Assembly: GCF_013004695.1 (NCBI RefSeq)
Contig: NZ_JABEMG010000040.1
Span: 1-34,309, forward strand
Length of the DNA: 34,309 nt
Reading direction: 5' to 3'
Source of the DNA: Promicromonospora citrea
GTDB lineage: Bacteria > Actinomycetota > Actinomycetes > Actinomycetales > Cellulomonadaceae
Numbering within the stretch: the stretch's first letter is position 1; each line of letters starts with the position of its first letter. A model generated the notes under the pieces. It made no database searches, was not told the DNA's origin, and saw only the letters and a list, made by a program, of their open reading frames with translations. This document shows, piece by piece, positions 1-15,459 of the stretch. Position numbers and translations under genes: made by a program.

Positions 1-958
1 GCGTGCGGCCGCCGGCCACGATCTCGCCCACGGCCCCGGTCACGGCCAGCACCTGCGGCCCGTGGGCCCGGAGCCGCAGGCCGCCGACCGACTCCAGCAC
101 CGCGGCGCCCGGCGGGTTCCCGACCGCGCGGTTGGCGGCCCGCAGGCTCGGCCGGTCCAGCGCCCCGGAGGCCGACACGCCTGCCCCTTCGGCGCCGCCC
201 CGCCCGAGGTCCTCGACGAGCACCGACCCGGCGCCGACGACCTCGAGCCCCGCACGGTCCGCGTCGAGAACGACCTCGGGGACCGCGCGGGCCCCGTCCC
301 CGTCCCGGAGGTCGTTCTCGAGGCGGACCTCGGCCGGGGCGGGCAGGGCGTCCACCGCGACGAAGCGGACCCGGTCGCCCGGGAGCAGGAGGGCCGGACG
401 CTCGCGGGTCACGTCCCACACCGGGGCGTCGGTGCGGCCGACGAGCTGCCAGCCGCCCGGGCTCTCGCGCGGGTAGACGCCGCTGTACGGTCCGGCGAGC
501 GCGACCGACCCGGCCGGCACGCGGGTGCGCGGGCTGGACCGGCGGGGGACGACGAGGTCGGGGTCGTCGCCCGTGAGGTACGCGAAGCCGGGCGCGAAGC
601 CGACGAACCCGACGGTCCACGCCGCCGCGGTGTGCCGGCGGACGAGCTCCTCGGGGCTCCAGCCCAGGAGCGCCGCGGCCTCGGCGAGGTCCTCGCCGTC
701 GTACCGGACGGGGATCTCGACGGTGCGCGCCTCGGCGGCGGCCCGGCGAACCAGCGGCCGGGCCCGCAGCGCGGCGGCCAGCTCGGCCGCGCCGACCGCC
801 GACGGCCGGAACGGCACGAGCAGCGTCCGTGCGCCGGGCACGGGCACGCCGACCCCGGGGAGGGGGTCGGCCTGGAGGGACTCGTACAGGGCGACGGCCT
901 GGTCCAGGTCGTCCAGCTCGACCAGGAGGGCGTCGTCGCGGGCGGTGCGGACCCGCAT
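1..958 (-). CDS. 5-oxoprolinase subunits B and C, fused (PxpB-PxpC), 3' end beyond window
   Basis: This is the 5' part of a gene that runs off the left edge, with about 319 codons visible. Residues 1 to about 220 match the KipI/PxpB family: an acidic start ([17 protein letters not shown]) and a central GFAPGFAYL segment. From about residue 237 the KipA/PxpC (biotin-dependent carboxyltransferase-like) domain begins, with VLVEDLGRGG, then SGALDRPSLRAANRAVGN and a closing AVTGAVGEIVAGG. PxpB and PxpC are separate proteins in E. coli and B. subtilis; here they form one reading frame without a stop. Together with PxpA they cleave 5-oxoproline to glutamate using ATP in the cytoplasm. The start ATG shares one base with the pxpA stop (TGATG), which implies translational coupling. 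Family assignment is firm; the C-terminal half cannot be checked. Confidence 0.9.
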   Translation of the reverse strand, partial: MRVRTARDDALLVELDDLDQAVALYESLQADPLPGVGVPVPGARTLLVPFRPSAVGAAELAAALRARPLVRRAAAEARTVEIPVRYDGEDLAEAAALLGWSPEELVRRHTAAAWTVGFVGFAPGFAYLTGDDPDLVVPRRSSPRTRVPAGSVALAGPYSGVYPRESPGGWQLVGRTDAPVWDVTRERPALLLPGDRVRFVAVDALPAPAEVRLENDLRDGDGARAVPEVVLDADRAGLEVVGAGSVLVEDLGRGGAEGAGVSASGALDRPSLRAANRAVGNPPGAAVLESVGGLRLRAHGPQVLAVTGAVGEIVAGGRT

Positions 959-1740
959 CACGCGGCGGCGCCTCCCGTCACCGGGGCGAAGGCGCGCAGG
1001 GCGATGCCCTCGGCGTCGAACACCTCGCGGATCCGGCGCGCCATCGCGACCGCGCCGGGGGAGTCGCCGTGCACGCACACGGAGTCGGCGCGCACGGCGA
1101 CGTCGGACCCGTCCACCGCGGTCACCACGCCCTCGGTGACCAGGCGGAGCATGCGCCGGGCCACCTCGTCGGCGTCGTGCAGCACGGCGCCCGGCTCGCG
1201 CCGGGAGACGAGGCGGCCCTCGGGCGTGTAGGCACGGTCGGCGAACGCCTCCGTCGCCGTCGCCAGCCCGGCGGCCTTCGCGGCGGCGAGGGCCGCGCTG
1301 CCGGGCAGCCCCAGCAGCACGAGCCCCGGGTCGACGGCGGCGACGGCGCGGGCGACCGCCGCTGCCACGCGCTCGTCGACCGCCGCCGTGTTGTAGAGCG
1401 CGCCGTGCGGCTTGACGTACGTGACGGCGGCGCCCTCGGCGTCGGCGAGGCCGCGGAGCGCGCCGATCTGGTAGGCGACGTCGGCCTCCAGCTCGTCGTC
1501 CGGCACGTCCATGTTCCGCCGGCCGAACCCGGCCAGGTCGCGGTACCCGACGTGCGCGCCCACGGTCACCCCGTGCTCCACGGCGGACCGGACGGTCCGG
1601 CGGATGGACGCGGGGTCGCCCGCGTGGAACCCGCAGGCGACGTTGGCGCTGGAGACGATGCCCAGCATCTGCTCGTCGTCGCCGAGGCTCCAGCGGCCGA
1701 AGCCCTCGCCGAGGTCGCTGTTCAGGTCGACGGCGCTCAT
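958..1740 (-). CDS. pxpA: 5-oxoprolinase subunit A (LamB/YcsF family)
   Basis: This 260-residue protein begins [17 protein letters not shown], the N-terminal signature of the LamB/YcsF family. It continues with [25 protein letters not shown], a [10 protein letters not shown] segment and [13 protein letters not shown] near the end, all in the usual order. PxpA works with PxpB and PxpC as an ATP-dependent 5-oxoprolinase converting pyroglutamate to glutamate. The ATG at 1740 was chosen over upstream in-frame codons because GAAGGAG lies a few bases before it and the family signature starts there. It lies 29 bp after the transporter gene and overlaps pxpBC by one base, so the three genes form one operon. 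The length matches the family (about 245-260 residues). Confidence 0.95.
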
Positions 1741-1769
1741 GGTGCTCTCTCTCCTTCGTGTGCGGGCGG

Positions 1770-3047
1770 TCACGCGGACAGCAGGTCGAAGATCGGGCCC
1801 ACCGCGTTGACCGCCATGTACCAGGTGACCACGGTGGCGAGCGTGCCGACCACCAGGAGCCACCGCGGGTAGCGGACGTCGCCCAGGAGCGTGCCGCGGA
1901 ACCAGCCGATGTACATGAACAGGGTCAGGCCGATCGGCAGGATCAGCCCGTTGACGCCGCCCACGAACACCAGCAGCGTGGCGGGCGCGGTACCGACCAG
2001 CAGGTAGACCGCGAGCGAGACCAGGATGAACCCCACGGTCCACAGGTCGGCGGTGCGGCCCGCGATGCGGGCGGAGAACACGGGCAGGAACGAGACCGAC
2101 GTGTAGGCCGAGCCGATGACGCTGGTGATCGCGGCGATCCAGAACACGGCGCCGAAGATGCGCAGGCCCGCCTCGCCCGCGGCCGCACCGAACGCGTCGC
2201 CCGCGGGGTTGCCCGCGACGTCGAGCACGACGCCGGAGGCCACGACCCCGAGGATGGCCAGGAACAGCACGTACCGCATGATGCCGGTGACGACGATGCC
2301 GCTGACGGCCGCCCGGTCGACCTCGCGGACGTGCTCGGGGCCCGCCGTGCCGGAGTCGAGCAGCTTGTGGGCGCCGGCGTAGGTGATGTACCCGCCGACG
2401 GTGCCGCCCACGATGGTGGTGATGGTCGCGAAGCTGACGGTGTCGGGCAGCACGGTCTGCCGCAGCGCGTCGCCCACCGGCGGACCGGACAGGATCGCGA
2501 CGATCACAGTGAGCACGATCATGACGAGGCCCGCGACGACGACCACCCGGTCGACGACGGCACCCGCCCGCTTGGCGAGGAAGATGGCGATGGCGATGGC
2601 CGCGCTGAGCGCGCCGCCCAGCCGCGGGTCGAGGCCGAACAGCGCGTTGAGGCCGAGGCCCGCGCCCGCGGTGTTGCCGATGTTGAAGATGAGCCCGCCG
2701 AACACGATGAGCACGGCGAGCACGTAGCCGCTGCCGGGCAGGGCCTGGTTGGCCAGCACGCTCGCCCGCTTGCCGGTGAGCGTGATCATGCGCCAGACGT
2801 TGAGCTGGATCGCGAGGTCGAGCAGGATCGAGACGAGGATGCCGAAGGCGAAGGCCGCGCCGAGCTGCTGCGTGAACGTCGCGGTCTGGGTGATGAAGCC
2901 GGGGCCGATGGCGGACGTCGCCATGAGGAACAGCGCGCCCAGCAGGGAGCGCCGCCGGGCGGCGACGAAGCTCGTGGTCCGGTCGGTGGGGCTGCCCGGC
3001 GTGGGGTCGGCCTGCTCCGTCGCAGGCTCGTGGCTCGTGTCGGACAT
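1770..3047 (-). CDS. NRAMP-like carrier linked to 5-oxoprolinase (YcsG type)
   Basis: This 425-residue integral membrane protein has about eleven hydrophobic segments after a short charged N-terminus, and resembles the NRAMP superfamily. The start at 3047 ([12 protein letters not shown]) is preferred because AGGAGG stands 6 nt upstream; an in-frame ATG at 3086 lacks such a site. Segment 1 reads [19 protein letters not shown]. At the place where metal-transporting NRAMPs carry DPGN I read TQQL, and I see no MPH motif in the region corresponding to helix 6 ([20 protein letters not shown]). B. subtilis has an NRAMP-like gene, ycsG, beside ycsF (pxpA), so the linkage is known. I infer that the substrate may be an organic acid such as 5-oxoproline rather than a divalent metal. 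It is the first gene of the operon with pxpA and pxpBC. Confidence 0.85.
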
Positions 3048-3075
3048 GGTGTCCTCCTGGGTGTCGGGATGAGCC

Positions 3076-3087
3076 GGATTGTTCAAC
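3076..3087. promoter_or_regulatory. operator-like site GGATTGTTCAAC
   Basis: This 12-mer contains the small palindrome TGTT-C-AACA. A copy with one change (GGATTGTTGAAC) occurs 129 bp away at 3205-3216. It lies between the pxp operon start codon and a possible minus-strand -10 (TAAGGT, 3135 to 3130), where a bound repressor would block transcription. Two related half-sites, GGTTGTTACCG near 3107 and AGTTGTTTACCG near 3181, lie between the copies. No regulator gene is in view, so the binding protein is unknown. Confidence 0.4.
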
Positions 3088-3204
3088 AGTCAGGATCGTC
3101 CCGCCCGGTTGTTACCGCCGCATTGCGGGACCTTATCGATCATGGCACGGGTCGAGGCCCCGTGAACAGGCCAGGACACGAGTTGTTTACCGACAGACCC
3201 TGTT

Positions 3205-3229
3205 GGATTGTTGAACGAACCCCTACGGT
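3205..3229 (+). promoter_or_regulatory. operator-like copy GGATTGTTGAAC with putative -10 TACGGT
   Basis: The 12-mer at 3205-3216 matches the site at 3076-3087 at 11 of 12 positions. Eight bases downstream, TACGGT (3224-3229) fits an actinobacterial -10, which would give a transcript starting near 3236 and about 30 nt before the ATG of the secreted peptidase-like gene. The 12-mer would then sit between -35 and -10. The position suggests joint control of both divergent units. This is inference from sequence alone. Confidence 0.4.
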
Positions 3230-3265
3230 CGTGGGCGAGTCGATCTCGGAGGGGAGACGAGAGAC

Positions 3266-4840
3266 ATGACGAACGACCGGACGACCGCACGGAGGACGGC
3301 ACGGAGAACGGCACGGACCACGACACGGGTGCGCGCGGGCGCCGTCGCCCTCGCGCTGACCGCGACGGCGGCCCTGGCCGCCCCCGCGACGGCCGCGGCG
3401 CCGCTGCCCGCGGCCCCCACGGCGGCGCAGGGTGGGGGCTGCCTGGACCCGGACCTCCCGCTCTCGGTCGAGGAGCGCCGCCTCACGGCGCGCCTTCCCG
3501 ACGCCGCCGACCCCACCGTCCCTGCCACGGCGACCTACGCCCGCACCGTCATCGAGGGTGGCGGTCTCGGCGGGTTCACGGCCGCCCTCACCGACCGGCT
3601 CTGCCGCACCCGCACCCTGGCGGGTGCCACGGCCCTGGCCGAGCGCCGGGGCGAGGCGCTGTGGGACGCGGCCGTCCGCCGCGCCCAGTCGGACGACGAC
3701 GCCGTGCGCGGCGACCTGCCCGCCACCGACGACCGCCCGCTGTACTGGACCCGCGTCGAGGCCATGGCCGTGCTGCGCCAGTGGGACCCGCGCGGCGGCC
3801 TCACCGACGAGCAGCGCGCCGAGCTCGTCGAGACCTTCGACCGCGCCTCGCGCGGGATGCACGACATCGACCTGCCGGCCGGCCGCGACGTCGTGCGCGT
3901 CATCGTCAGCGGGTTCGACGTCTACACGCTGGACGGTGGCACCACCGGCCCGGCGCCCGGCACGGTGGGCAACAACATCCGGCACGGCAACCCGTCGGGC
4001 GCGACGGCGCTCACCCTGGACGGCACGCGCTACCGCACCGACGACGGCCGCATCGCCCACATCGAGGCCTACACGCTGCCGGTGAGCTACCGCGAGTTCG
4101 CCGACGGCTACCTCGAGGACACCGTGGGGCCGTTCCTGGAGCCCGGACCCCGGCAGGTCGACGCCTCGCTCACCGTGAGCCAGGCCGGCGGCTCGCAGTT
4201 CAACCTCGAGCAGTGGAACGCGCGCTACCACGGCGTCTCGCCCGGCAACGACGGCATCGCCCCGTGCCCGCGCGTCGGCGGGGTCGCGCAGCTCGCGCTC
4301 GACAACCCGGGCTGCAACGTCCAGGTGGTCGACCGCTGGGGCGGCGGCGACGGGCTCACCGACCCGCCGCAGTGGACGACGGCGAGCCTGCCGGTCGCCG
4401 AGATGATCGCCGCCGACACCGGCGCCGACGTGCCCCGCCCGCCCGGCGACACGTGGCCCGACCCGGACGTGGCCTTCGGCGTGGTCTGGAACACCAGCTA
4501 CACGCAGTTCCGCGACTGCACCTCGCCCGCGCTGAGCACCGTCAACAGCCCGCCGGAGGTGACGTACCCGCCGTCGACGCCGCCCGTCCCGCCCGCCGAC
4601 GGGTCCTGCTCCTTCAGCGGCGGCGGCGGCAACTACCTCTCCAACGAGAGCGCCTACCGCAACACGCTGCTGCGCGACCGTGCCGGGCTCGACATCCCGG
4701 CCGGGCACATCCACACGCCGGACATGCAGCACTTCGAGACCGACTTCGGTGTCAGCGACCCGACCTTCGACGCCTGGCGCACCTCGATCGCCGCCCAGGC
4801 GCGCAACCTCGTCCACGCGGTGGCCGACACGGTGGACTGA
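3266..4840 (+). CDS. secreted pyroglutamyl-peptidase-like protein (C15 fold) with Ser at the catalytic Cys position
   Basis: This 524-residue protein has an Arg-rich n-region, a hydrophobic stretch (AGAVALALTATAALAAP) and a likely cleavage site near APATAAA, so it is probably exported. From about residue 210 it follows pyroglutamyl peptidase I: VIVSGFDVY with RHGNPSGATAL (compare GFEPFGG...NPS), then SQAGGSQFNLEQWN (compare GQAGGR...PER), NYLSNESAYRNTL (compare TFVCNHLFY) and AGHIHTPDMQ (compare GGFIHIPY). By this alignment the triad Glu and His are E315 and H483, but the nucleophilic Cys is Ser459; C448 is the nearest cysteine. The family enzyme is about 215 residues, so roughly 200 extra N-terminal residues are unexplained. 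GGAGA lies 8 nt before the ATG. It faces the 5-oxoprolinase operon, which suggests extracellular release of pyroglutamate. Activity is uncertain given the Ser. Confidence 0.75.
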   Translation: MTNDRTTARRTARRTARTTTRVRAGAVALALTATAALAAPATAAAPLPAAPTAAQGGGCLDPDLPLSVEERRLTARLPDAADPTVPATATYARTVIEGGGLGGFTAALTDRLCRTRTLAGATALAERRGEALWDAAVRRAQSDDDAVRGDLPATDDRPLYWTRVEAMAVLRQWDPRGGLTDEQRAELVETFDRASRGMHDIDLPAGRDVVRVIVSGFDVYTLDGGTTGPAPGTVGNNIRHGNPSGATALTLDGTRYRTDDGRIAHIEAYTLPVSYREFADGYLEDTVGPFLEPGPRQVDASLTVSQAGGSQFNLEQWNARYHGVSPGNDGIAPCPRVGGVAQLALDNPGCNVQVVDRWGGGDGLTDPPQWTTASLPVAEMIAADTGADVPRPPGDTWPDPDVAFGVVWNTSYTQFRDCTSPALSTVNSPPEVTYPPSTPPVPPADGSCSFSGGGGNYLSNESAYRNTLLRDRAGLDIPAGHIHTPDMQHFETDFGVSDPTFDAWRTSIAAQARNLVHAVADTVD

Positions 4841-4871
4841 GCCCGCGGACCGGGGCCCGGCGCGGGGCGGT

Positions 4872-4877
4872 TACGGT
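4872..4877 (+). promoter_or_regulatory. putative -10 (TACGGT) for leaderless nadC
   Basis: TACGGT ends 6 nt before the GTG at 4884. The predicted transcription start would coincide with the start codon, as for other leaderless genes in this window. No Shine-Dalgarno sequence is visible before this GTG. Confidence 0.5.
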
Positions 4878-4883
4878 GTGGGC

Positions 4884-5837
4884 GTGAGCTCACCCGTGCA
4901 CGACACACCGTCCCGCGTCAGCCCCGGGCTCGACCCCGCGTGGGTCGCGCGGACCGTCGAGGTCGCCCTCGACGAGGACCTCGGCCCCGCGCCGGGCCGC
5001 GACGTCACCACCCAGGCGACCGTCCCGCCGTCGGCCGAGGGCGTCGCGGACCTCGTGGCGCGCCAGGACGGCGTCGTCGCGGGGCTCGTCGTCGTGCGCG
5101 AGGTGCTGGAGCAGGTGGCCGCCCGCCTCGGCCTGCCGGCACCCGCCGTCACCTTCCACGCGCAGGACGGCGACGCCGTCACGGCGGGCCGGCTCCTCGC
5201 CGCGCTCGCGGGCCGCACACAGGTGCTGCTCGTCGCCGAGCGCACCCTGCTCAACCTCGCCGGCCGTGCCTCGGGCGTCGCCACGGCGACCCGCGCGTTC
5301 GCGCGCGAGCTCGCGGGTACGGGCGCGCAGGTGCTCGACACCCGCAAGACCACGCCGGGCCTGCGCGCCCTGCAGAAGTACGCGGTGCGCGCGGGCGGCG
5401 GCACCAACAAGCGCATGGGCCTGTACGACGTCGCCATGGTGAAGGACAACCACGTGGTGGCCGCCGGGTCCGTCGCGGCGGCGGTCCGCGCCGTGCGCGC
5501 GACGTTCCCCGACGTGCCCGTCCAGGTGGAGGCCGACACCACCGAGCAGGCGCTCGAGGCGGTCGGCGCGGGCGCCGACTTCCTGCTCCTCGACAACATG
5601 CCGCCCGCCGTGCTCGCCGAGGCCGTCGCGGCGGTCCGTGCCCGCGAGGGGCACGACGGCGTGCCGGAGCACGTCGAGCTCGAGGCGACCGGCAACCTGA
5701 CGCTCGGCGTCGCGCGCACGGTCGCGGAGACCGGTGTCGACTACCTCTCCGTCGGCGCCCTCACCCACAGCGCGCCCGTCCTCGACCTGGCCCTGGACCT
5801 CCGGCCCGCCGACCGACTTCCCCTGAGTGCCTCCTGA
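4884..5837 (+). CDS. nadC: nicotinate-nucleotide diphosphorylase (carboxylating)
   Basis: This cytoplasmic enzyme of 317 residues makes nicotinate mononucleotide from quinolinate and phosphoribosyl pyrophosphate in de novo NAD synthesis. The quinolinate phosphoribosyltransferase signatures are clear: [59 protein letters not shown], the barrel acidic residues in [10 protein letters not shown] and LLLDNMPP, and EATGNLTL with [13 protein letters not shown] at the end. The GTG at 4884 was chosen because a -10 lies 6 nt upstream; another GTG at 4878 is possible. nadA and nadB are not in the window. The last residues (PLSAS) are encoded by the first copies of an 11-bp tandem repeat that also supplies the stop codon. 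Confidence 0.95.
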
Positions 5838-12332: not shown

Positions 12333-13565
12333 GTGGACGGAATCATCTCCGGGGTACCGGTGCTGGCCGCCGGGATCTTCGGCGTGATCGTCGGCGTCGT
12401 CGCGACGCTGGCGTTCCGCGTGTCGGAGCGGCAGCAGCGCGCCGTCGACCGGTCCGAGCCCGACGAGCTCGACGCCGGTCTCGTCCGCGTGCTCTCGGTG
12501 CTGCGGTCGGCCGCCGTCGTGCTCGACGGCGACGACGAGGTGGTGCGCGCCTCGCCACCCGCCTACGCGCTCGGGGTGGTGCGCAACGACGCGATCGTGC
12601 ACGCGGCGATCAACGACCTGGTGGCCCTCGTGCGGCGCGACGGCGTCATCCGTGAGCAGGAGCTCGAGCTGCCGCGCGGTCCGGTGGGCCAGGGCACGGT
12701 GCTGCTCCAGGTGCGCGTGGCCCCGCTCGGTCTCGAGCGGGTGCTGGTGCTCGCCGAGGACCGCACGGAGGCCCGGCGCGTCGAGGCGATCCGCCGCGAC
12801 TTCGTCGTCAACGTGTCCCACGAGCTCAAGACGCCGGTGGGCGCGCTGGCCCTGCTCGCCGAGACGGTGGCCGACGCCGCGGACGACCCGGTCGCCGTCC
12901 GGCGGTTCACGGAGCGCATGCAGCGCGAGGCCGTGCGCCTGTCCGCTCTGGTGCAGGAGATCATCGAGCTGTCGCGCCTGCAGGGAGCCGGCGCCGTACC
13001 GAAGCTCACGCCCGTGCCGATCCGCGACGTCGTCGAGGAGGCCGTGGACCGGGCGCGGACGACCGCGCAGTCCAAGAACATCGCCATCACGACGGGCGGC
13101 GCCCTCGACAGCGAGGTCTACGGCGACCACAACCTCCTGGTGACCGCCGTGCGCAACCTCGTGGACAACGCCGTGGCCTACTCGGGGCCGGCCAGCCGTG
13201 TCGGCGTCGGGGTGAGCGAGCGGGCGGGCCTCGTGGAGATCGCCGTGGTGGACCAGGGCATCGGCATAGCGGAGGATGCACAGGAGCGCGTGTTCGAGCG
13301 GTTCTACCGCGTGGACCCCGCGCGCTCGCGCGACACCGGTGGCACGGGCCTCGGCCTGAGCATCGTCAAGCACGTCGCGGCCGACCACGGCGGCGACGTC
13401 ACGATGTGGTCGGAGCCCGGCAGGGGGTCGACCTTCACGCTGCGCATCCCGGCCGCCGACCGGCCGGGCGGTGCGGCCGCGCGCGCGGCCCGTCCCGCGC
13501 GGGCCGCCGCGGCGGAGCCCGACGAGGCGGCGCAGGCCGCGACGAACGAGGAGGTGGGTGCGTGA
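12333..13565 (+). CDS. senX3: phosphate-responsive sensor histidine kinase SenX3
   Basis: This 410-residue membrane histidine kinase has one or two N-terminal membrane segments (VPVLAAGIFGVIVGVVATLAF, about residues 7-28). A PAS-like domain follows (about 50-145, including SVLRSAAVVLDGDDEVV). The dimerisation domain has phospho-acceptor H163 in VNVSHELKTPVGALALLAE. The ATPase domain shows the N box (NLVDNAVAYS, N275), G1 (VVDQGIGIA), F box (ERVFERFYRVD) and G2 (GGTGLGLSIVKH). The C-terminus is Ala/Arg/Glu-rich. The start GTG follows a -10 by 6 nt. It overlaps regX3 by 4 nt and diverges from phoU, the arrangement seen for SenX3/PhoR in other actinobacteria. It should phosphorylate RegX3 under phosphate limitation, with PhoU and Pst giving the signal. 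Confidence 0.93.
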   Translation: MDGIISGVPVLAAGIFGVIVGVVATLAFRVSERQQRAVDRSEPDELDAGLVRVLSVLRSAAVVLDGDDEVVRASPPAYALGVVRNDAIVHAAINDLVALVRRDGVIREQELELPRGPVGQGTVLLQVRVAPLGLERVLVLAEDRTEARRVEAIRRDFVVNVSHELKTPVGALALLAETVADAADDPVAVRRFTERMQREAVRLSALVQEIIELSRLQGAGAVPKLTPVPIRDVVEEAVDRARTTAQSKNIAITTGGALDSEVYGDHNLLVTAVRNLVDNAVAYSGPASRVGVGVSERAGLVEIAVVDQGIGIAEDAQERVFERFYRVDPARSRDTGGTGLGLSIVKHVAADHGGDVTMWSEPGRGSTFTLRIPAADRPGGAAARAARPARAAAAEPDEAAQAATNEEVGA

Positions 13566-14260
13566 CGCGCATCCTGGTGGTGGAGGACGAGGAGTCGTAC
13601 CGGGACCCGCTGACCTACCAGCTCACCCGCGAGGGCTTCGAGGTGGTCGAGGCGGCCGACGGGCACGCGGCCCTCGCCGCGTACGACGCCGAGGGCGCCG
13701 ACCTGGTGCTGCTCGACCTGATGCTGCCGGGCCTGTCCGGCACCGAGGTGTGCCGCGAGCTGCGGGCGCGCGGGGACGTGCCCGTCATCATGCTCACGGC
13801 CAAGGACTCCGAGATCGACAAGGTGGTGGGCCTCGAGCTCGGCGCCGACGACTACGTCACCAAGCCCTACTCGTACCGCGAGCTGCTCGCGCGCGTCCGG
13901 GCCGTGCTGCGCCGCCGCCAGCCCGCCGACACGGCCGACCGCGACGGCGACGGCGTGCTCCAGGTGGGCCCCGTCCGGATGGACGTGGAGCGGCACACCG
14001 TCACGGTCTCCGGCCGGTCGGTCGCCCTGCCGCTCAAGGAGTTCGACCTGCTCGAGCTCCTCCTGCGCAACGCGGGCCGGGTGCTCACGCGCGGCCAGCT
14101 CATCGACCGGGTCTGGGGCGCCGACTACGTGGGCGACACCAAGACGCTCGACGTCCACGTCAAGCGCATCCGGTCGAAGATCGAGCCCGACCCCGGCACG
14201 CCCCGGTACCTGCTCACCGTGCGCGGCCTGGGCTACAAGCTGGCCGACGACGAGGACTGA
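13562..14260 (+). CDS. regX3: OmpR/PhoB-type response regulator RegX3
   Basis: This 232-residue regulator has a receiver domain (1-120) with D9/E10 acidic pocket, phospho-acceptor D52 (LVLLDLMLPG), T80-region MLTAKD and the Lys of DDYVTKPYSYRELLAR. A winged-helix DNA-binding domain (about 135-230) ends with DVHVKRIRSKIE and the wing RYLLTVRGLGYKL. The GTG start overlaps the senX3 stop (GTGA) and has GAGGAGGTGG 4-8 nt upstream. It is the cognate regulator of the adjacent kinase. The 11-nt repeats before both pstS genes and between phoU and senX3 are its likely targets. Confidence 0.95.
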   Translation: MTRILVVEDEESYRDPLTYQLTREGFEVVEAADGHAALAAYDAEGADLVLLDLMLPGLSGTEVCRELRARGDVPVIMLTAKDSEIDKVVGLELGADDYVTKPYSYRELLARVRAVLRRRQPADTADRDGDGVLQVGPVRMDVERHTVTVSGRSVALPLKEFDLLELLLRNAGRVLTRGQLIDRVWGADYVGDTKTLDVHVKRIRSKIEPDPGTPRYLLTVRGLGYKLADDED

Positions 14261-14282
14261 CCGGGCATACCAGGCACCGGGC

Positions 14283-14326
14283 GTTCATCTCGCGTTCGCC
14301 TGCCGGCCTCCGCCCGGCAGTAGGTT
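14283..14326 (+). promoter_or_regulatory. PHO box and -10 of the first pstS gene
   Basis: Two adjacent 11-mers, GTTCATCTCGC (14283-14293) and GTTCGCCTGCC (14294-14304), match the direct-repeat form of the actinobacterial PHO box. They take the place of a -35. TAGGTT (14321-14326) is the -10, and the GTG start at 14335 is 8 nt further, so the mRNA is probably leaderless or nearly so. Confidence 0.75.
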
Positions 14327-14334
14327 CGCGCAGC

Positions 14335-15459
14335 GTGACCACGCCCCGCGCGACCCGCCTCCTCGCCGCCGCGACCGCCGGCGCCCTCGTGCTCCCGCTG
14401 GCCGGGTGCGCCGGGCTCGAGCTGCCCGCCCTCGGCGTCTCGCCCGAGCCGACGGCCTCGGCGGACCCCGCCGTGGTCGGCGCGTTCCACGGCATCGGGG
14501 CCTCGTCGCAGTCCACCGCCATGGAGGCGTGGATCGCCGGGTTCCGGCAGGAGCACCCCGACGCCACCGTGACCTACGACCCGGCGGGGTCCGGCGACGG
14601 CCGCGCGGCGTTCCTCGCCGGCGAGGCCGCCTTCGGCGCGAGCGACGTCCCCCTGAGCGACGAGGAGATGGCCGCCTCCGGCCCGGCGTGCGACGGCGGC
14701 AACGCCATCGACCTGCCCGTCTACATCAGCCCGATCACGGTGGTCTTCAACGTGCCGGGTGTGCGGCGGCTGAACATGTCGTCCGAGCTCCTCGCCGGCA
14801 TCTTCCGCGGTGACGTCACCCGCTGGGACGACCCGGCGATCGCGGAGGCCAACCCGGGTGTGGAGCTGCCCGCCCAGGGGATCACGCCGGTCCACCGCTC
14901 CGACGACTCCGGCACGACCGAGAACTTCACGGACTACCTCCACGCGACGGCGCCCGACGCGTGGCCCTGGGAGCCGGACGGGACGTGGCCGCAGCCCGGC
15001 GGCTTCGGGGCCGACGGCACCGAGGGCGTGACCACGACCGTGCGGTCGACGCCCGGCGGCATCACCTACGCCGACGCGTCGGCCAGCGGCGGCCTGGGGA
15101 CCGTCGCCGTCCGGGTCGGCGACACCTACGTGGAGTACAGCGCCGACGCGGCCGCCGCCGTCGTCGACCTCTCGCCGCGCGTCGAGAACCGGTACGAGCA
15201 CGACCTCGCGTTCCAGGTCGACCGGACCATCGACAAGCCGTTCGCCTACCCGCTGCTGCTCGTGTCCTACCTGATCGTCTGCTCGCGGTACGACGACCGC
15301 GCCGAGGGCCGGTTCGTCAAGGAGTTCGTGCGGTACGTGGCCTCCGCCGAGGGGCAGGAGCGCGCGGCCGGCGCGGCCGGCAGCGCTCCGGTGTCCACCG
15401 ACGTGCAGCAGTGGATCGCGGAGGCCGCCGACGCCGTCTACCTGACCCGGGAACGGTGA
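14335..15459 (+). CDS. pstS: phosphate-binding lipoprotein PstS (first copy)
   Basis: This 374-residue lipoprotein has a signal peptide ending LPLAGC, with C25 the lipidated cysteine. Mature sequence shows the PstS phosphate-binding features GIGASSQSTAMEAW, DPAGSGDGRAAFLAGEAAFGASD and RSDDSGTTENFTDYL, and the C-terminal block VSYLIVC...AEGQERAAGAAGSAPV. It should capture phosphate outside the membrane for PstCAB. It is separated from regX3 by 74 bp holding a PHO box and from the second pstS by 172 bp with its own PHO box, so it has its own promoter. The two PstS proteins share the same framework but differ widely, indicating an old duplication. Confidence 0.93.
   Translation: MTTPRATRLLAAATAGALVLPLAGCAGLELPALGVSPEPTASADPAVVGAFHGIGASSQSTAMEAWIAGFRQEHPDATVTYDPAGSGDGRAAFLAGEAAFGASDVPLSDEEMAASGPACDGGNAIDLPVYISPITVVFNVPGVRRLNMSSELLAGIFRGDVTRWDDPAIAEANPGVELPAQGITPVHRSDDSGTTENFTDYLHATAPDAWPWEPDGTWPQPGGFGADGTEGVTTTVRSTPGGITYADASASGGLGTVAVRVGDTYVEYSADAAAAVVDLSPRVENRYEHDLAFQVDRTIDKPFAYPLLLVSYLIVCSRYDDRAEGRFVKEFVRYVASAEGQERAAGAAGSAPVSTDVQQWIAEAADAVYLTRER

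Follow-up and report, generated by a model that had tools for sequence, protein, structure and literature searches.

N-terminal pyroglutamate (pGlu) blocks ordinary aminopeptidases, and the bacterial pyroglutamyl peptidases are, to our knowledge, generally regarded as intracellular cysteine enzymes. Bacterial use of 5-oxoproline has rarely been examined; in Corynebacterium glutamicum, which has a closely related system, growth on this compound needs PxpT and PxpABC (PMC13274462). In this organism the GntR-type repressor PxpR binds 5-oxoproline with a dissociation constant (KD) of 726 nM and controls pxpTABC via agattgttcaacaatct, and a reporter rose 6.5-fold when the motif was altered or deleted (Sundermeyer et al. 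2026, PMC13274462). In the available part of that report, pyroglutamyl peptidases are given as a source of 5-oxoproline, and the regulon is described without a peptidase gene. Here we analyse a locus of Promicromonospora, a soil actinobacterium, in which a pxpTABC operon faces the gene of a putatively secreted protein, P0001, with the fold of the C15 pyroglutamyl peptidases. The window, by which we mean the whole stretch of DNA that was analysed, is the entire contig C226 (34,309 bases); the draft genome to which it belongs has 4.96 Mb in 290 contigs. The pathway itself is known; what is new is the putative extension of its regulon by a secreted C15-fold protein with serine in place of cysteine.

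We consider it probable that P0001 is an exported enzyme with the fold and active-site layout of C15, using Ser459 as the nucleophile of a triad with Glu315 and His483, and that it releases extracellular pGlu as part of the PxpR regulon. Such an enzyme, probably stabilised by disulfides, would remove N-terminal pGlu from peptides outside the cytoplasm; the freed 5-oxoproline would enter through PxpT and be hydrolysed to glutamate by PxpABC. Both transcription units would be repressed via PxpR boxes and induced by 5-oxoproline. In the resulting feed-forward loop, basal amounts of the enzyme would test for pGlu peptides, and imported 5-oxoproline would then induce enzyme, carrier and oxoprolinase together. 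A preliminary description of this DNA had proposed a complete pathway from a secreted peptidase-like gene facing an NRAMP-like carrier and a PxpA/PxpBC operon. Every one of these parts was found where it had been placed, and we regard the complete pathway as a well-supported proposal. The features are as follows.

1-958, reverse strand: pxpB/C fusion (5-oxoprolinase carboxyltransferase-like subunits), 3′ part lost at the contig end; PF02682, 2.4e-62
958-1740, reverse strand: pxpA; PF03746, 2.1e-105; NCBIfam PxpA NF003814, 3.4e-115, above cut-off
1770-3047, reverse strand: pxpT-like carrier (NRAMP/APC fold); PF01566 Nramp, 3.4e-13; 5-oxoproline importer by gene and context similarity, substrate disputed
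3077-3091, forward strand: PxpR-type box 1 (pxpT side), GATTGTTCAACAGTC; 1 mismatch to GATTGTTSAACAATC
3206-3220, forward strand: PxpR-type box 2 (secreted-gene side), GATTGTTGAACGAAC; 2 mismatches to GATTGTTSAACAATC
3266-4840, forward strand: secreted C15-fold protein P0001 (putative serine-type pyroglutamyl peptidase), 524 amino acids; E315, S459, H483
4841-4883, no strand: 43-bp gap, the site of pxpR in congeners; pxpR absent here, whereas 8/8 congeners with the secreted gene carry pxpR (FCD-type GntR) there
4884-5837, forward strand: nadC; PF01729, 6.5e-54, and PF02749, 1.7e-16; flanking gene outside the system that marks the boundary of the pxpR deletion

The secreted gene starts 218 bp from the divergent carrier gene, and the centre of box 2 lies about 53 bp upstream of its ATG at 3266. 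On the other side all four of pxpT, pxpA, pxpB and pxpC occur together, with an ATGA overlap at the junction of pxpA and pxpB. Since the window is a whole contig and the fused gene runs leftward off its end, the pxpC part is incomplete, with the first 53 amino acids of its PF02626 match present (1e-13); the PxpB part scores slightly below the NCBIfam PxpB cut-off (136.1 vs 145.55 bits). The orthologue in a congener (L014) is full-length, with 575 amino acids and both domains (PF02682 and PF02626). Beyond the preliminary description, the present analysis adds the Cys-to-Ser change, the match to a proven PxpR box and the loss of the regulator gene.

The region between pxpT and the secreted gene contains two near-palindromic sites (3077 and 3206), of which the pxpT-side box agrees with the core of the C. 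glutamicum PxpR site at 14 of 15 positions. At up to 3 mismatches, chance would place 0.05 such sites in the window on average, and none of 100 dinucleotide shuffles contained two. Across the 4.96-Mb genome, the degenerate pattern GATTGTTSAACRNNY is matched in full at two places only, both at this locus; with one mismatch tolerated, a single unrelated site and site 1 read on the reverse strand are added. The operator-like sites that the two units had been said to share are therefore the only full genomic matches to a pattern of this kind, and they match an experimentally mapped operator. The pxpT-side box sits within a 23-base block that is identical in all nine Promicromonospora loci, and the secreted-gene-side box is found in the same nine, where L013 shows 3 mismatches and each of the others 2. 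At up to 2 mismatches this second box was not found in two congeners that have pxpT and lack the secreted gene; it therefore comes and goes with that gene.

Within Promicromonospora, 8 of 12 other genomes share the secreted gene with the window genome. The preliminary description had staked its proposal on linkage of the peptidase-like gene to pxp genes in relatives, and such linkage was found in all eight congeners with the gene, where it faces pxpTABC and both boxes are present. Beyond the genus the gene is also pxp-linked, in another order (pxpT, GntR, secreted gene), in two Microbacterium loci, one Microbispora and one Sciscionella locus. A GntR-type gene lies directly 3′ of the secreted gene in the eight congeners (88-94% identical to the L011 copy, which has GntR and FCD domains) and precedes nadC in L011, L012, L014, L015 and L017. 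Two congeners without the secreted gene (G003 and G005) have the same GntR gene directly facing pxpT with one box, the arrangement of C. glutamicum. In the remaining two (G007 and G009, the latter 83% complete) neither the secreted protein nor, at E ≤ 1e-30, PxpT had a match. An inverted repeat (GAGTGCTGG ... CCAGCACTC) that may be a terminator or a second operator was also seen between the secreted gene and pxpR, at about 9020-9080 in L011 and about 8730-8790 in L015.

An AlphaFold model of P0001, built with 51 homologues, reached a predicted local distance difference test score (pLDDT) of 88.4 and a predicted template modelling score (pTM) of 0.86. Foldseek returned eight matches at E ≤ 0.001, all of them C15 pyrrolidone carboxyl peptidases. 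VIA-align listed 23 C15 entries with Z scores of 17.4-21.3, headed by 5z47 (Z 21.3, root-mean-square deviation 3.3, 203 residues), and the best non-C15 entry listed had a Z score of 11.3. In this confident model, residues 204-524 form the pyroglutamyl peptidase I (C15) fold. Alignment with three C15 proteins by hhalign paired GFD with GFE, NPS with NPS and SQAGG with GQAGG, as well as E315 with E79, S459 with C142 and H483 with H166. With the profile PF01470, 22 of the 51 homologues match at E ≤ 1 (best 2.4e-5); P0001 stays below the curated cut-off, and the distant relatives G143 and G164 are barely above it.

The alignment of the secreted family has 83 rows and spans down to 31-42% identity to the window protein. 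E315 is conserved in all 83 rows, and S459 and H483 in all 82 that reach those positions. The pGlu pocket of C15, which we take to be formed by Phe, Asn and Gln residues, is likewise conserved at the aligned positions: F217 in 83/83 rows, N242 in 83/83 and Q306 in 82/83, with Tyr (57) or Phe (26) at position 220, figures that concern the alignment and not the geometry. Judged from these sequences, the whole sampled family appears to have exchanged the nucleophilic Cys for Ser and to have retained the remainder of the site, and we infer from this layout both serine catalysis and specificity for pGlu.

The N-terminus of P0001 looks export-like by eye, to about residue 56, and a crude test found an export-like hydrophobic stretch ahead of the mature part in 81 of 83 rows, so that the protein is predicted to be exported. 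Consistent with this, three pairs of cysteines co-vary (59/113 in 77/78 rows; 334/350 and 418/448 in 44/44) and are probably the disulfides expected of an exported protein. A lipobox pattern occurs in 17 rows, six of which look real by eye; in this subclade (L019 and L042-L046) the lipobox replaces the plain signal peptide, and the vicinity contains neither a PxpR box nor pxp genes. A helical domain spans residues 58-200 and carries a nearly invariant DDRPLYW motif (pLDDT 92.4 when modelled alone). It was compared with known modules and none was accepted: there is no PDB match at E ≤ 0.001, and the best (Z 6.5) is a designed helical protein, which does not imply a new fold.

A contig scan for relatives found 124 and yielded 79 retained loci. 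As copies of L011, L013-L016 and L018 on contigs of equal length, L020-L024 and L055 do not enter the counts; the partial L061 was excluded from the tree and from the box count of 34 closer and 38 distant homologues and kept in the 83-row alignment, and L019 is not among the 34. The family is sparse, given that only 8 of 396 genomes drawn evenly from the phylum had a match, the window genome included. Among the 34 closer homologues outside Promicromonospora, a box lies within 590 bp before the mature start in 11 at up to 2 mismatches and in 12 at up to 3. Elsewhere in these loci (453,702 bp) there were three box matches at up to 2 mismatches, all beside pxpT in the Microbacterium and Microbispora loci. 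For eight of the 11 boxed copies (Streptosporangium, Microtetraspora, four Nonomuraea, Actinoallomurus L033 and Planosporangium) the fetched flanks contain no pxp genes, and co-regulation therefore does not rest on adjacency alone. When 22 of the 54 rows of a tree were labelled box-with-pxp, box-only or pxp-only, the labels required 3 changes, and none of 200 shuffles gave so low a number, although the 32 unlabelled rows were not counted and near-copies make labels cluster. As a separate observation, L061, a record labelled Betaproteobacteria and perhaps mislabelled or contaminated, holds a truncated relative (42% identical) of the secreted gene in the neighbourhood of pxpA and pxpB.

The box survey also took in 33 genomes that carry the secreted gene, representing 33 of the 79 loci. 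At up to 1 mismatch, GATTGTTSAACRATY was present in 23 of them; the reversed-pattern control gave 6 matches in 3 genomes, 5 of these in two Bacillota. A PxpA homologue was found in 31 of the 33 (E ≤ 1e-20). Six genomes in which PxpT had no match have the box between a GntR gene and an MFS carrier (L185 at 6096, L186 at 6082, L187 at 6051, L188 at 6212, L190 at 5983 and L194 at 6147; the domains were confirmed in L185, L190 and L194). The box of Tsukamurella L197 (6207) is followed by an MFS-type carrier of the same kind and then a pxpB/C fusion, and we propose the boxed MFS carrier as a candidate alternative importer of 5-oxoproline. In L191 the box lies ahead of a pxpB match. Streptomyces sp. 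150FB has a GntR gene with a box on either side and, behind it, DUF969, DUF979 and a canonical C15 Pcp (L193, 6022-9421); a third box lies between another GntR gene and pxpA (L202). These cases in Streptomyces sp. 150FB, L191 and L197 show that such boxes precede pyroglutamyl peptidase and 5-oxoprolinase genes independently of the window. DUF969 and DUF979 may form a carrier for pyroglutamate or pGlu peptides. The boxes in L189, L192, L195 and L203 adjoin no pxp gene, no GntR gene of this kind and no carrier gene of the kinds searched for, and are unexplained or due to chance.

Several observations weigh against the proposed role of P0001, at the level of the protein, of its regulation and distribution, and of the carrier. 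The protein alone has no sequence match in Pfam, NCBIfam or the PDB, sequence comparison ties it only weakly to C15 (profile E 0.59; hhalign E 8e-4 with a probability of only 24%), and the cysteine nucleophile that defines C15 is replaced by Ser459. This replacement, together with an extra N-terminal domain whose DDRPLYW motif has no known function, would suit a catalytically dead relative acting outside the cell as a binder of pyroglutamate or pGlu peptides, which it would scavenge or present to the carrier. We think this unlikely, since the Glu and His are invariant even in the most divergent homologues and the replacement is always a usable nucleophile (Ser in 82/82), whereas one would not expect all three to persist in a protein that only binds. 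P0001 could also be an active hydrolase or cyclotransferase of another specificity and still feed PxpABC, for example by releasing 5-oxoproline from gamma-glutamyl or glutaminyl compounds, or by acting on a different lactam or amide. Insertions have brought its C15 domain to about 320 residues, compared with about 205 in C15, and with the extra domain they could reshape the pocket; moreover H481, beside the catalytic His, is invariant where the aligned C15 proteins have Phe. However, the positions aligned with the C15 motifs GFEPF, NPS and GQAGG are retained, and in Streptomyces sp. 150FB a canonical Pcp gene stands behind boxes of this kind, so that a different substrate seems rather improbable.

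With regard to regulation, pxpR has been lost in the window strain though both boxes remain, a natural case of regulator loss. There is no GntR gene in the gap between the secreted gene and nadC, which lies within one contig, whereas pxpR is kept beside the pxp genes in all ten other pxpT-bearing congeners. The closest match to their PxpR in this genome is 57% identical, and the system is predicted to be constitutive here, unless this paralogue has taken over. The 57%-identical GntR gene, on contig C257, was rejected as a displaced pxpR: 8 of 12 congeners carry its orthologue (84-87%) plus a separate pxpR. Outside the genus, 22 of the 34 close homologues have no box even at 3 mismatches, and among the 38 distant loci none has a box at up to 2 mismatches, one (L063) has it at 3 and 37 have none. 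L019, from another genus of the same family, has neither box nor pxp genes nearby, and most homologue loci outside Promicromonospora have no pxp neighbours. A pxp or Pcp unit is boxed in eight genomes whose secreted gene lacks a box (Micromonospora L026, Actinomadura L038 and L050, Streptomyces L039 and L048, Cryobacterium L046, Saccharopolyspora L053 and Tsukamurella L069), and a PxpT homologue was found in only 11 of the 33 searched genomes with the secreted gene (E ≤ 1e-30). Because boxes are missing before many homologues, we claim membership of the PxpR regulon for part of the family only, and none for the distant homologues, given the single box at 3 mismatches among them.

Of the known parts, the carrier is the least secure, and whether its substrate is 5-oxoproline or Mn2+ is disputed. 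It scores above the cut-off of the Pfam Nramp family (49.8 vs 29.8) and below that of the NCBIfam divalent-metal Nramp equivalog (30.2 vs 50 bits), and by eye it has no DPGN, which we take to be the metal-binding motif of NRAMP. A further point against the proposal is that a PxpT relative in Bacillus subtilis, YcsG, is a Mn2+ importer according to its authors, who point to possible polar effects in earlier work, as far as the available part of that source goes (PMC10448178). If PxpT imported Mn2+, or if the pxp genes only recycled intracellular 5-oxoproline, the secreted gene would be an unrelated neighbour, as the many unlinked homologues and the unboxed copies in genomes with a boxed pxp unit could suggest. 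We consider this very improbable, with linkage conserved in four genera, and we reject chance neighbourhood: the linkage occurs in two gene orders, boxes stand upstream of eight unlinked copies, and loci without the gene lack the second box.

Returning to the proposal of a secreted pyroglutamyl peptidase, we lean towards a wider version of it, in which exported serine-nucleophile enzymes on the C15 fold, with an N-terminal helical domain, form a hitherto unrecognised family in Actinomycetota and some Bacillota. In several actinobacterial families its members would belong to the PxpR regulon and take part in a loop of secretion, cleavage, import and sensing. If true, a secreted serine enzyme controlled by a 5-oxoproline sensor would account for one source of external 5-oxoproline, represent a new enzyme type on the C15 fold and offer a non-thiol tool for de-blocking peptides. 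The PxpR regulon, which the available part of its report describes only for pxpTABC (PMC13274462), would gain the secreted enzyme, the MFS carrier and the DUF969-DUF979-Pcp cluster as predicted members.

In L014 a fusion of biotin carboxylase and biotin carrier (12909-14714) follows directly behind pxpB/C, beyond the point at which the window's contig ends, and by eye the same holds in L011, L012, L017, L220 and L221. The Promicromonospora oxoprolinase might use biotin.

Compared with the C15 pyroglutamyl peptidases I, or pyrrolidone carboxyl peptidases (PF01470; 1aug, 1z8t, 5z48), P0001 shares the fold, the Glu and His of the triad and motifs of the GFE, NPS and GQAGG type. It differs in having Ser for Cys, a length of 524 amino acids (192-220 residues in the C15 chains among the matches listed), an export-like N-terminus, an extra helical domain and conserved Cys pairs. 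As the defining Cys is absent, we do not class it as a C15 cysteine peptidase. It is not a substitute for a missing canonical Pcp either, an idea we rejected, as the genome has a separate C15 enzyme on contig C4. No secreted or serine-type C15 homologue appeared among the literature matches listed, although earlier publication remains possible.

Removal of pGlu outside the cell has precedents. The mammalian ectoenzyme that degrades thyrotropin-releasing hormone acts extracellularly and is a metallopeptidase. A trypanosome pyroglutamyl peptidase, type I according to a cited title, was reported active in host serum and went undetected in the secretome of the same paper (PMC9184580). In the parts of the sources available, neither enzyme is tied to an operon for pGlu import and catabolism, unlike the window gene. 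The B. subtilis pxpABC operon links the NRAMP-family carrier YcsG to pxpABC in the same way, and the available text mentions no secreted C15-like gene and concludes that the carrier imports Mn2+ (PMC10448178). The C. glutamicum pxpR-pxpTABC locus, as far as its report is available, has pxpT, pxpA, pxpB and pxpC in the same direction, a PxpR box upstream and, as in the congeners, a GntR-type neighbour (PMC13274462). Relative to this system, Promicromonospora has fused pxpB and pxpC, has placed pxpR behind the secreted gene in the congeners and lost it in the window strain, and has added a secreted gene with a box of its own.

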